Source: Brachionus plicatilis
Lineage: Eukaryota > Rotifera > Eurotatoria > Ploima > Brachionidae
Direction: 5' to 3'
Assembly (NCBI GenBank): GCA_010279815.1
Contig: QEOQ01000274.1
Location: 475,769 to 539,768, forward strand
DNA length: 64,000 bases
The notes beneath the pieces are model-generated. The model saw nothing but the letters and a program-made list of their open reading frames with translations. It had not been told where the DNA came from and did not search any database. Shown piece by piece: positions 17,567-22,043 of this stretch; positions within the stretch are counted from its first letter, which is position 1, and each line of letters begins with the position of its first letter. The translations under genes were made by a program, and so were the position numbers.

Positions 17567-17601
17567 CAGCGGTTCTAATAAAATCGTAACGCCGCTTGGC
17601 C
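17567..17601 (+). repeat. Left terminal inverted repeat of the Tc1-type element
   Basis: 35 bp from CAGCGGTT to CTTGGCC, a perfect inverse of 22009-22043. It is preceded by TA. Confidence 0.95.
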
Positions 17602-17785
17602 ATGTCGGCCAAGTCGTGTCGGTCTTTGTTTGGCCATGTCGGCCAAGTTGTTTGGCCATGTCGGCCAAGTTGTTTGGCCATGTCGGCCATGTCGGCCAGG
17701 GTGTTCGGCCATGTCGGCCAGGGTGTTCGGCAATGTCGGCCATGTCGGCCATGTGTTCGGCCATGTCGGCCAGGGTGTTCGACAG
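17602..17785 (+). repeat. Left subterminal GGCC-rich array
   Basis: Units such as GGCCATGTCGGCCAAG and GGCCAGGGTGTTC repeat irregularly. Apparent open frames here (WPTWP, RPSCSAMSA type) are repeat artefacts. Confidence 0.92.
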
Positions 17786-17984
17786 TTAAAAAATTGCTAT
17801 TTTTTTTTTGAAAACAAAAGTCTCATAAATTTTTAATGGATGGAAACATACACTTATATCAAGGGATAAGTGTAAAAATTTAAAAGCATGTATGATAAGA
17901 ATCAATTATGTATTTGAAAAAATTTTCAATATTAACCATAAATTTTTTTTTATTTTAGAAAATTAAAAATTCAATTTATATTTA

Positions 17985-18683
17985 GATTGAATGTTGAAGC
18001 TAATGTTTAGTGAAGGAATGAAATTAAATTATTTGAAAATACACTATTCAGTGACTATGGGAACATTCCAAATGGCCATTTTATTGGGCTTTAATCATTC
18101 GGCTGCTATTAGTTTGAAAGAAATCCAGGAGACTACTCAATTGCAGTCATTGTTGGAGTCGAAACTTGTTACTATTTAGGAAAAAAAAAACTCAGAGCCT
18201 GCTGAGTCAACTGCTCACAAATCTTTGAGCGAAGATTTGAATGAAAGTACCATGATTACTTTGAATCTTAATTACTCTAATAACAGAACTAAGTTTAAAA
18301 TAAATGCTGCTATTCAAAATGAAACACCTCAAGTAAATAATTTCTTTTTTCAGGAAATATAATTTTGAATTTTTTTTAAATAAGGAAACCGAAATGACCC
18401 AGACTTCTGTAGATGAGGATCGAAAATTGTATTTGCAAGCTACAATTGTTCGGGTTATGAAATCCCGAAAAAATCTAAGTCACAACCTTTTTATCCAAGA
18501 AGTATTTTCCGAAATTATGAATCATTTTATGACTTTTATTTCTTTTTTTAGGTGATAAATCAATCAAAGGGTCGATTAACGCCTTCAATAAGCTTGATTA
18601 AAAAATGTATAGAGTCTTTAATTGACAAGCAGTATATTAAACGTACAGCTAAAACCAAAGATGAGTATAGCTACATCGCTTAG
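17985..18683 (+). pseudogene. Captured cullin-1 C-terminal fragment
   Basis: Three exons (about 17985-18332, 18385-18501, 18552-18683) splice with GT...AG to a cullin C-terminus. The first has KLNYLKIHYSV, TFQMAILLGFN and an EIQETTQL block (winged helix A region). The second has [21 protein letters not shown] and the third ends [17 protein letters not shown] ... EYSYIA. The order is the cullin winged-helix and Nedd8-acceptor region; MKSRK contains the neddylation lysine position. Similarity is nearest cullin-1 by the NLNY ... KFKIN linker and KKCI. A single in-frame TAG lies at 18177-18179. Full cullins are about 750 residues, so only the C-terminal part was captured. Confidence 0.85.
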
Positions 18684-18802
18684 CTGTCTCGAAGGCGTTG
18701 ATCGTAAAAATTTAATTTAATTTTATGTTTTTTTTTTTTAAATGAAGAAAAAAATTAAAAATTTTTTGCAATTTTATTTATTTAAAAATATTAAAAAAAA
18801 AA

Positions 18803-20092
18803 TTAAATTTTGTTTTTTTTTGTTTTTTTTCTTGCATCGACGCTGTATGCCCACATCTTCTTCCAGTCTGACACATGTTTTAAGATGCATTCCTTCATGA
18901 AAATATCTTTAAAAAAAATTAAATTTTAAATTAATAAAGATTCAAATTGATGTTACCTTTTATTTTTGATATTGAATTTGGATATTCAATTTTTAATTTG
19001 TCCAGACCTTGATTTTTTGATCTTTCCGGAATCTCTCGTTCTATATATTCTATCAACAGGTTTTTAAAATATAACCTGTGATTATTATCCTTTTTAAAAA
19101 TAAATTAAGAAAATTTTTTTAAAACTTTTTCTTTTAAATTACTTTTTGTGATTGTTCAACAACAGCATTGTTATCATCACTTTCATTTGATGATTCAACA
19201 CTCTCTGTGCGCTGGCTTACTTTTTCAGAATAAGCTTCCGGTGCTTTAGGTTGATTAGATGCCAAACACTTAAATAAAAAATTTAATGATTAAAATTTGA
19301 TCTTTTTTTTACTTACATTTGTGTGTTTAGGAATGCGCTCTAATGCGTCAAGTTTTTGACTCATTTCACCCATTGTCCGCTGCATTTTTTCCATCTGATG
19401 AATTAGCTTAAAAAAATTTATCATTATTATTTTATTTAAAAAAAAAAATCATAAATTACTTTTTGCTGGTTAGCAAGAAAGTCACCAGCGATCCTATTTA
19501 TTAGATCGAAAGAATTTTTCCTGCTATTTTTGCTTGACCACTCCTGATCATCAGCAAAAGAAAGATTATCAAATGATTTTGATAATGTTAGCTTTCTTTT
19601 TCTTTTCTGGGTTTGATCCGATGGTCCAGCCTGGATTTCTGTCTCTGAACCTTGGGCAGAATTTTCATCCACAATTAGTTCCGATTGCTCCACGACAGCA
19701 GATGCTTGTATGCTTGGGTCGGAATTGACTTGGTGCCCGTGTCGAAATTCATCGGCCTCCATTAGCACAATTCCTGGCTTATCGCTTTTTACGGTTTTAT
19801 TTAAAAGCTCAGCCAGAACTTCGAATTTTTTTTTCCGGCTGTATAAAAAAACCGAAACCATGCCATTGATTTCAAACTTTTTTAAAAATTAAATTTAATA
19901 AATTAGATTTAATAAAATTAATAAAATATTTACTTCTTCAAAATTTCTAAAATCTTTACAGTCTTCTATTGGAATATTACAAACTGCTCCAAGATAATTT
20001 GTAATGCTACTTGGAGCTTTTTCTATATTTGCCTGATTTTTCATTATGCGTACTTGAATGCAATTTTTGGTGTCAAGTTTCTTTGGTTGCAT
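18803..20092 (-). CDS. Intact 6-exon cargo gene of unknown function in the Tc1-type element
   Basis: Exons 20092-19934, 19876-19460, 19406-19317, 19268-19143, 19089-18957 and 18906-18803 join at GT...AG sites into 1029 nt, 342 residues, without any stop. I do not recognise the family. The N-terminal 90 residues look globular (CIQVRIMKNQ, GMVSVFLYSRKKKFEVLAEL). A polar middle with KRKRK, a likely nuclear signal, follows. The short exon 3 forms a coiled-coil-like heptad (MEKMQRTMGEMSQKLDALE). The C-terminus is basic with a conserved-looking helix (FKNLLIEYIEREIPE), which could be a BEN-like fold, a guess only. It starts 62 bp from the transposase start, divergent. Confidence 0.8.
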
Positions 20093-20153
20093 TGTTGTTA
20101 CTGTCGGTATTTCGATTTTTGATAATTTTTTATCTAAATTTAGATTATAGAAA
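20093..20153. promoter_or_regulatory. Short divergent promoter region of the Tc1-type element
   Basis: The 61 bp between the two ATG codons (20092 minus, 20154 plus) must drive or lie within the 5' ends of both genes. The bases are AT-rich, with no clear TATA box. Confidence 0.45.
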
Positions 20154-21585
20154 ATGAACTTTAGTAAAGAAACAATGAAGAAAATATCAGATTTAATAAG
20201 AAAGCTAAGTCTGAAGGGGCTAAAAGCAACGGCAATTCGTGAAAATGCACTCAAATTGTATCCTGAAGAAATTGTTCCAAAACTTACTGTAATTAAAAAA
20301 TTGAAATTTTAATATTTAATATTATAAATTTTTAAGGCAATCAGAGCAAGACAATTTCGTCTAAAACAAAATAAAAATCGCCTTAATTTAGGATATTTTA
20401 ATCGGAGATATGGAGTTTCTCAAAAAGTGACTCCTGTGATTAGAGAATTTATCCGAGTAATTCTTAGTTAATAAATTTATTCAAATATTTAATTTCTATT
20501 ATAGAGCCTAATAAAAACTTCGAATGGGTTTAAAAGTGCACGGGAAATTTCTCTTGAAGTCCGAAGAGTTTTTTCTGTACTTTTAAGCATATCAACCATA
20601 TGCAATTATCGGAAAAGTAAATATTTTGTTAATACTTTTTGATTTAAATGATTTTAATACAAAGCTACAGTTGTAGGCTACAATTGTAGAATTCTACAAT
20701 TCTACAATTCTACAATTCTACAATTGTAGCCTACAAATAGACAAAAAATTATGACTCAAATTTACTGAGATCATATACTTTAAAAAATAATTATTCTTTT
20801 TGACTAATAGAACTGGGTTATGTATATAGAAGAGCGCGGGGAAGGCCAAATTTAAATCAAATGAAAAAGAGGCAAAGAGAAGATTTGCCAAAAGATATAA
20901 ATCATGCAACATGAATCGATTTTTTTTTGCCGATGAGACAAAAATAGAAATAAACACGTTTCCTTTATACCATTTTCGAGAAAAAACTTCAAAACCAAGC
21001 TGTGTTGGTATAAGGGAAAAGAGTTCAATAAAGGTGAATGTTTGGGCCGCAATAAGTTGCAAAGGACCCACAAGATTTTGTGTAAGATCTTCTTTTATCA
21101 AAATATTTCTAAATAATTATTAAAATAGCTTTTTACATCAAACTTAAACAAGTATGGTTATAAGTATATATTGGAATACTACCAACTCCCGTATTTAGGA
21201 ACAAAATTCAGTCGAGAAGAATTAGCTGCAAGTTATTTTATACAAGATAATGATCCGAAGCATAGTTCCAACCTGTGTACTCAGTTCTTAAGAGACAATG
21301 GAGTAAATTGGGTAAGAAATTAAATATTTATTTTCAATTAAAACAATTCTTTATGATTTATTTTATTAGTTAAGAACACCTCCAAATTCGGCTGATTTTA
21401 ATCCGATAGAAATGCTATGGAGCGACCTTAAAACATTCGTCAGAAAAAGATAATGCAGAAGTTTAGAAGAACTGACTGAAACAACAAGAGAATTTGAGAC
21501 AAATTTGAGTGTTGAAAAGTGTAGAAAATTGTCAAACCATCTTAAGAAAGTTTTGACAATAGTAGCGAATAACAAAGGAGACTAG
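20154..21585 (+). pseudogene. Tc1/mariner (IS630-type) transposase, frameshifted
   Basis: Exons 20154-20288, 20337-20456, 20505-20616, 20811-21081, 21129-21311 and 21370-21585 have GT...AG introns and mostly open frames. The N-terminus has two helix-turn-helix-like segments (LRARQF-like, YGVSQKVTPVI). Catalytic motifs are FADETKI (first Asp), FIQDNDPKH (second Asp) and SADFNPIEMLWSDLK (third acid), as in Tc1 transposases. The frame changes within exon 4 near 20860-20880 in a GAAAAAG run, and an in-frame TAA follows FVRKR near 21450. The protein is therefore probably non-functional unless these are sequence errors. Its stop TAG abuts the right GGCC array. Confidence 0.85.
20640..20740. repeat. 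ATTCTACA microsatellite/hairpin in a transposase intron
   Basis: The 8-bp unit AATTCTAC repeats four to five times and is bounded by inverted GGCTACAATTGTAG blocks, within the intron between transposase exons 3 and 4. Confidence 0.75.
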
Positions 21586-22008
21586 GCCGACGTGGCCGAC
21601 ATGGCCGAACAACTTGGCCGACAAGGCCGACCATCTTGGCCGACAAGGCCGAACATCTTGGCCGACAAGGCCGAACACCCTGGCCTACATGGCCGACAAG
21701 GCCGACAAGGCCGAACACCCTGGCCTACATGGCCGACAAGGCCGATATGGCCGAACACCCTGGCCGACATGGCCGAACAACTTGGCCGACTAGGCCGACG
21801 TGGCCGAACAACTTGGCCGACTAGGCCGACGTGGCCGAACAACTTGGCCGACATGGCCGAACACATGGCCGACAAGGCCGAACAACTTGGCCGACTAGGC
21901 CGAACAACTTGGCCGACTAGGCCGAACAACTTGGCCGACTAGGCCGGCCGCGCCGACGCCGTTTAAAGGCCGCGCCGGGCCGACAAAATGGCCGAGGCCG
22001 CGCCGGCC
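21586..22008 (+). repeat. Right subterminal GGCC-rich array
   Basis: About 420 bp of irregular units of GGCCGACATGGCCGAACAACTT and GGCCGACAAGGCCGAAC. The left array is in the inverse orientation. GGCCG half-sites occur every 10-12 bp. Open frames here are repeat artefacts. Confidence 0.92.
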
Positions 22009-22043
22009 GGCCAAGCGGCGTTACGATTTTATTAGAACCGCTG
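22009..22043 (-). repeat. Right terminal inverted repeat of the Tc1-type element
   Basis: Perfect inverse of 17567-17601, ending CTG followed by TA. Confidence 0.95.

Follow-up and report, generated by a model that had tools for sequence, protein, structure and literature searches.

Tc1/mariner transposons typically encode a transposase only and generally lack accessory proteins (available text of PMC12242761). What a second gene and GC-rich terminal arrays could contribute to such an element is the question raised by a stretch of 64,000 nucleotides from the rotifer Brachionus plicatilis (contig QEOQ01000274.1 of assembly GCA_010279815.1, positions 475,769 to 539,768; hereafter the window). 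A first-pass annotation, made from the sequence alone, had proposed that this window holds one complete Tc1/mariner-type unit with a TA duplication, a perfect terminal inverted repeat (TIR), two inverted GC-rich arrays and three internal genes, divergent and spliced. Here, we find that a two-gene unit with conserved TIRs, arms and arrays recurs in three sequence subfamilies of the same genome. The element in the window is a transposed copy of this two-gene Brachionus Tc1/mariner family, in which the transposase probably acts on the TIRs and the product of the second gene, ORF2, on the arrays.

The element forms a single, complete unit of 4,477 bp at positions 17567-22043, and the TA duplication, TIRs, arrays and divergent genes were all located at exact coordinates (Table 1). 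Both ends carry the perfect 35-bp TIR CAGCGGTTCTAATAAAATCGTAACGCCGCTTGGCC, with CAGCG as the outermost bases. The interior holds two spliced genes of six exons each, the transposase on the plus strand and ORF2 on the minus strand; the splice sites of both were assigned from GT..AG borders plus open frames rather than from RNA. The left and right arrays are mutually inverted and share a period of 22 bp. Tandem Repeats Finder reported 22-bp repeats in them with scores up to 370, and the self-match at a lag of 22 was 0.64 and 0.71 in the two arrays, compared with 0.28 expected from composition. The right array is the site of the six most GC-rich 200-bp segments in the 64 kb, with a GC fraction of up to 0.65. 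The remaining GC-rich stretches of the window (~51.1-51.5 kb and 53.9-54.9 kb) appear protein-coding when judged by eye, and it is plausible that the arrays are its sole strongly GC-rich non-coding DNA. Rfam, applied to the window with its gathering scores, yielded no hit.

Table 1. Features of the element and its borders, in window coordinates.
Feature	Position	Strand	Basis or remark
Left TA target-site duplication	17565..17566	no strand	read at flank
Left TIR, 35 bp, perfect	17567..17601	+	end comparison and genome pattern search
Left subterminal GC-rich array, ~22-bp unit	17598..17781	+	ORF2-side arm
Captured 3' part of host cullin-2-like gene, two introns	18017..18730	+	
In-frame stop in cullin fragment	18177-18179	+	
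ORF2 exon 6 with stop codon	18803..18906	-	end computed from 342-aa frame
ORF2 exon 5	18957..19089	-	
ORF2 exon 4	19143..19268	-	
ORF2 exon 3	19317..19406	-	
ORF2 exon 2	19460..19876	-	KRKRK basic stretch
ORF2 exon 1 with ATG	19934..20092	-	
Transposase exon 1	20154..20288	+	
Transposase exon 2	20337..20456	+	
Transposase exon 3	20505..20616	+	
Transposase exon 4	20811..21081	+	first catalytic D; frameshift in window copy
Transposase exon 5	21129..21311	+	second catalytic D (QDNDPKH)
Transposase exon 6	21370..21585	+	catalytic E (PIEMLW, DD34E); premature stop in window copy
Right subterminal GC-rich array, ~22-bp unit	21585..21945	-	abuts end of transposase frame
Cap module	21946..22008	-	between right array and TIR; contains TTTAAACGGCG box
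Right TIR, 35 bp, perfect	22009..22043	-	
Right TA target-site duplication	22044..22045	no strand	read at flank

The proposed Tc1/mariner affiliation is supported by the TA target with its duplication, the TIRs and the transposase. The spliced relative in the C29 copy (copies are named by contig; C14 is the contig of the window) matches the DDE_3 domain with E=2.1e-17 and Sleeping Beauty (PDB 5cr4) with E=2.1e-15, while the next PDB matches have E values of 0.4 and above, which leaves Sleeping Beauty as the sole significant PDB relative. By hand count over window exons 5-6, 34 residues separate the second catalytic D from the E, the Tc1-like DD34E spacing. For an N-terminal paired-like helix-turn-helix, HTH_Tnp_Tc3_2 matched weakly, with E=0.014 and a score of 16 bits where the cut-off is 31.5. 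The family thus shares the TA target, TIR, DDE_3 domain and DD34E signature with the Tc1-like DD34E group, e.g., Sleeping Beauty, but differs from it by a second conserved gene, a six-exon transposase, GC-rich subterminal arrays, asymmetric arms and a length of ~4 to 10 kb. The single-gene organisation typical of Tc1/mariner elements, although not defining for them, is departed from here, with ORF2 linked to the transposase at 17 of 24 loci among the matches listed.

The genome of 102.9 Mb (173 contigs) was then searched for further copies. A pattern of TIR plus TA (37 bases, at most 3 mismatches) gave 29 matches, 20 of them exact, and its reversed control gave 0; a relaxed TIR pattern gave 159 matches and its controls 0. 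For nine further TIR-paired copies of 195 to 6,114 bp, both ends were read, and TA flanks both ends in all nine (the search pattern itself contained TA). Eight of these are miniature derivatives of 195 to 2,172 bp that have lost the genes; the seven larger miniature copies that were mapped have kept the arrays. In the ninth, C87 (6,114 bp), both TIRs and ORF2 are present, the transposase is truncated, and a second transposon is nested inside. In addition, TIRs at 361721 and 371555 of C42 enclose exons of both genes, in a copy read except for its middle ~5 kb.

These copies bear directly on a rival explanation, namely that unrelated genes were accidentally nested between chance TIRs. Nesting does occur in this family, as seen from the second transposon in C87 and from the cullin fragment of the window element, which was acquired later and is carried by just two copies (C14 and C81) among the matches listed. 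However, other copies share the same ends and arrays and the same pair of genes in head-to-head order (17 of the 24 ORF2 loci, the window among them; C87 and C42 as described above), and this plan recurs across subfamilies. Therefore, accidental nesting is rejected for the transposase and ORF2, for which we consider it extremely improbable, while it holds for the cullin piece.

Single-TA empty sites, which had been suggested as a further check, were found for sibling copies and not for the window copy itself. Joined flanks from seven sibling sites were used as queries, and relatives crossing the site were obtained for two. The C76 copy lies in a dispersed repeat, and all four fetched unoccupied repeat copies cross the site with one uninterrupted TA, the similarity extending 22 to 47 bases past it. 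C12 is a weak case: in both of the relatives fetched, similarity crosses the site by no more than 9 bases. The joined-flank search gave no joined match for the window copy. Its left flank is a repeat whose similarity ends a few bases short of the insertion site in most of the listed relatives, and its right flank has one relative (C55), in which similarity starts at the TA and the left side is different. The left-flank repeat (17345-17561) occurs at no fewer than about 40 places in the genome, a lower bound because 40 of 405 candidates were scored; it recurs in 789-bp steps on contig C29 from 727687 and has no Rfam match.

Several copies show peculiarities of their own. The transposon nested in ORF2 of C87 (L013:3155-6033) is a second Tc1-like element, 2,879 bp long, whose perfect TIRs measure 591 bp and start with ACGGGTGTCC; by eye, it has its own transposase-like frames and is devoid of GC-rich arrays. 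The miniature copy on C13 (L023:1847-3086) lies centrally in a near-perfect palindrome with arms of ~90 bp or more. On C41 (L018:1010-1082 and 2285-2347), the TIR-flanking sequence is repeated 1.3 kb further in, where TACAGCGGTTTT follows it once more, resembling a truncated second end.

The transposase of the window copy is broken by the exon 4 frameshift and the exon 6 premature stop, and this copy would therefore depend on an enzyme from another copy. Among the 14 transposase copies compared with the window copy, the ratio of non-synonymous to synonymous substitution rates (dN/dS) was 0.10-0.26 in seven and 0.34-0.58 in five, including C87, whose transposase is possibly contaminated by the nested transposon and was not used. 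The remaining two are C81, with 2.7 from 11 differences, and C29b, in which dS is saturated. Exons 4-6 are represented as one unbroken sequence in the 227-aa B. plicatilis protein record P0004. Intron 3 of the window copy contains a tandem repeat of the 8-bp unit CTACAATT (20678-20725), and the mapped internal sequence of miniature copies C1, C12 and C89 is the equivalent of window positions 20455-20734, i.e., exon 3 plus this intron-3 repeat.

ORF2 of the window is an open 342-aa frame over its six exons. In a search of 5.8 billion proteins, with E values up to 1, three relatives were found by sequence and five by profile, all from B. plicatilis; the search needed shared short words, so that remote relatives could be missed. 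In the genome, 24 ORF2 loci were recognised, two of which (C10, C30) rest on E values above 0.001. The head-to-head arrangement with the transposase at 17 of them, window included, was established by protein match for 13 and by DNA match to exons 1-3 for 4. This count used 14 protein and 4 DNA matches of the transposase, drawn from part of the matches; the DNA rule was distance only, with orientation there taken from collinear matches across both genes. Linkage of ORF2 to the element is also visible in separately deposited protein records, since P0003 has a sequence resembling antisense exon 1 upstream of ORF2, and P0001, P0002 and P0021 contain apparent translated array or cap sequence (all by eye).

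For ORF2, dN/dS relative to the window copy could be calculated in 13 of 15 cases, and all the values are well below 1 (0.10 to 0.54); dS was saturated in C29b and C42. The lower values are 0.10 (C52, 15 codons only), 0.14 (C25), 0.21 (C11), 0.22 (C53c), 0.26 (C41) and 0.27 (C87), and the upper ones 0.30 (C20 and C45), 0.36 (C53), 0.40 (C81), 0.43 (C29a), 0.47 (C7) and 0.54 (C13b). These ratios derive from BLAST-aligned codons with the best high-scoring segment pair per exon, which favours conserved parts, and are given without a significance test. Values below 1 in copies that have since decayed point to selection that would have acted in their source lineages. In the six diverged copies with both genes (C25, C41, C53c, C11, C29b and C42), ORF2 has a dN of 0.33-0.52 compared with 0.19-0.28 for the transposase, i.e., 1.6 to 2.5 times as high.

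The arms of the element fall into three subfamilies: A, to which the window copy belongs, B (C25, C41, C38, C46) and C (C42, C31, C2, C84, C29). Across the five arms compared, the first 26 bases of the TIR are 24-26/26 identical in pairwise comparison. The array unit is GGCC-ATGTC-GGCC-AAGTTGTT in subfamily A, GGCCGACCTAAGCGACCTAGCC in subfamily B and CCGTCCGACTGAA-like in 13-bp steps in subfamily C. Arrays were found in the read arms of all three subfamilies, which rules out that they are an accident of the window copy. The best self-match lag is 22 in the A arrays and 22 or 44 in most B arrays, with 21 and then 22 in C25. Within each subfamily, transposase-side and ORF2-side arms have separate start modules. 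In A, the right arm of the window groups with the left arm of C87, and the left arm of the window with the right arm of C87; in B, C41 is set apart from C25; in C, C42 left groups with C31, and C42 right with C84. The left, ORF2-side arm of the window is without the cap found in the right arm. By eye, 17 of the 21 subfamily-A arms inspected contain the TTTAAACGGCG box of the cap.

Despite the different units, the core GTCGG, or its complement CCGAC, is common to the arrays of all three subfamilies. Read inward, the counts (GTCGG:CCGAC) are 10:0 and 19:0 in A, where 2 of 21 arms were counted; 0:3, 0:15, 0:18, 0:15, 0:15 and a mixed 1:2 in B; and 0:16, 0:6 and 0:10 in C. Thus, 10 of the 11 arrays counted carry the core in a single orientation, while the shuffle mean is at most 1.03. 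A role as binding arrays, raised as a possibility from the sequence, is consistent with this conserved, strand-polarised core. Likewise, the faster divergence of ORF2 relative to the transposase parallels the faster change of the arrays relative to the TIR, which fits a putative pairing of ORF2 with the arrays without proving it.

Combined, these patterns suggest the following mechanism. The transposase would recognise the conserved TIR, perhaps together with the cap, and cut at TA. We infer that ORF2 binds to the arrays at their strand-polarised GTCGG/CCGAC core; in doing so it would pair or mark both ends, and elements of ~4 to 10 kb could be mobilised, as by TNPA for CACTA elements. Tentatively, ORF2 may then be an array-binding partner whose DNA specificity drifts with the array unit, and the family may be an independently evolved CACTA-like system with two proteins and bipartite ends in an animal Tc1/mariner lineage, its TIR and transposase conserved and its array and ORF2 changing fast.

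A number of observations weigh against this mechanism, and several of them favour a rival explanation, in which the family is likewise a two-gene Tc1/mariner lineage but the arrays are a GC-rich satellite that expanded passively and ORF2 serves a different function, e.g., nuclear import, target choice or counter-silencing. The arrays do expand like a satellite, with 198-bp steps in miniature copies C7:1455443-1456420 and C23:715234-715815, and part of their structure may therefore be passive. The period in subfamily C is mostly in 13-bp steps (three of four arms; 47 in the fourth) and not 22. Common descent alone could be the source of the shared core. With respect to the TIR, the core points one way in A and the opposite way in B and C, and at least one further subfamily-A arm, that of C39, switches orientation within its array (by eye), so that orientation is not strictly kept. 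ORF2 itself gave no accepted relative and no recognised DNA-binding domain in Pfam, NCBIfam and PDB searches. Weak Pfam and NCBIfam matches of its members (E 0.007 to 5; one at 13.3 bits against a cut-off of 173) are discordant between members and were not used, and a suspected BEN-like C-terminus was supported by no search. AlphaFold predictions of ORF2 (8 and 7 aligned rows) reached a mean predicted local distance difference test score of 37 and 44, too poor for use. At seven of the 24 ORF2 loci (C20:922720, C34, C1, C61, C20:1182370, C18 and C30), no adjacent transposase was present among the matches listed. All nine projected transposase copies carry at least one disruption (the C42 region ended within exon 6), no uninterrupted source copy was among them, and activity is thus deduced only from the sharp ends. 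Finally, the accessory proteins of the Oxytricha TBE transposons altered no DNA-binding profile in E. coli (available text of PMC12242761). On the other hand, purely passive arrays agree poorly with their presence in the read arms of every subfamily, with one strand orientation of the core in all counted arrays but one, and with the seven larger miniature copies mapped, which keep arrays while losing genes. We therefore regard the passive explanation as less likely and favour array binding by ORF2, with the caution expressed above.

The ciliate Tec elements are Tc1/mariner transposons with extra genes. A precedent is also the TBE of Oxytricha, a Tc1/mariner transposon with three open reading frames whose extra genes are under purifying selection. 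TBEs are set apart by their ciliate host, by telomere-like repeats in the TIR and by accessory proteins of 57 kDa (zinc-finger/kinase) and 22 kDa; the description available does not mention GC-rich arrays (PMC12242761). In the present family, the TIR sequence is not telomere-like, and no zinc-finger or kinase family was among the ORF2 domain matches. A second parallel is found in the CACTA (En-Spm) elements with their proteins TNPD and TNPA, in which the subterminal repeats recognised by TNPA change from one subfamily to the next and the TIRs stay constant (available text of PMC2613891). Both systems combine a conserved TIR, subterminal repeats that differ by subfamily and end, and a second element protein. 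In contrast to the CACTA termini, 3-bp target duplication and tnp2 transposase of that group, our family has CAGCG ends, a TA duplication and a DDE_3 transposase; moreover, recognition of the repeats by TNPA is reported, whereas binding of the arrays by ORF2 is a prediction.

The third gene of the first-pass annotation did not stand as such. While the transposase and ORF2 are genes of the family, the plus-strand gene at about 18012-18683 is a cullin tail with most of the Cullin_Nedd8 domain coding sequence, and it is a dead, recently captured host fragment, not an element gene. Its donor, still present in the genome at C2 (L016) with exons open where checked, is cullin-2-like by one conserved exon (E ~1e-46 compared with 2e-21 for cullin-1). 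Compared with the host gene, the two captured copies known among the matches listed, C14 and C81, have six substitutions, an in-frame stop and the loss of 27 bp in common; they have 7 and 2 private substitutions, and 693 of 708 compared sites are identical in all three sequences. A functional third gene, e.g., for a peptide with a neddylation domain, could be argued from the retained introns and the largely complete Cullin_Nedd8 coding sequence, but the stop and the deletion in both copies and the restriction to two copies make it highly improbable. Because introns are present, the capture took place at the DNA level. On the left, where the fragment begins, the element arm ATGTTGAAGCTAATGTTTAGTGAA is similar to an apparently intronic sequence (ATGTTGAAGCTAAACTTTAGTGAA) located further upstream in the host gene; on the right, the junction falls within a poly-T tract common to both; uptake by template switching at short homologies during gap repair would suit these junctions. 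The C81 copy is cut off inside the array at the contig end (L009:7131), likely an assembly break. Host coding fragments inside DNA transposons, as in transduplication, are also described for Turmoil-1 of C. elegans (PMC2572040) and plant Pack-TYPE elements (PMC8903248), as far as their available text goes; here, the fragment bears introns, its carrier is a Tc1/mariner element, and two copies share one stop.

The family was not described in the literature on Brachionus DNA transposons or Tc1/mariner accessory genes, as covered by titles and abstract openings with subscription journals mostly outside the search, nor is it mentioned in the available text of two rotifer genome papers (PMC6555955, PMC11954553). 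What is new here is an animal Tc1/mariner variant with a second gene and end arrays, the precedent for extra genes being the ciliate TBEs (available text of PMC12242761). The cullin capture is a clear example of an animal cut-and-paste element taking up part of a host gene, with the donor and two captured copies known. A Tc1/mariner lineage whose second gene is under selection and whose subterminal arrays diverge, living in a small animal that can be cultured, would make it possible to test directly why proteins that bind end arrays are needed by some transposons, and how ends and proteins diverge together.

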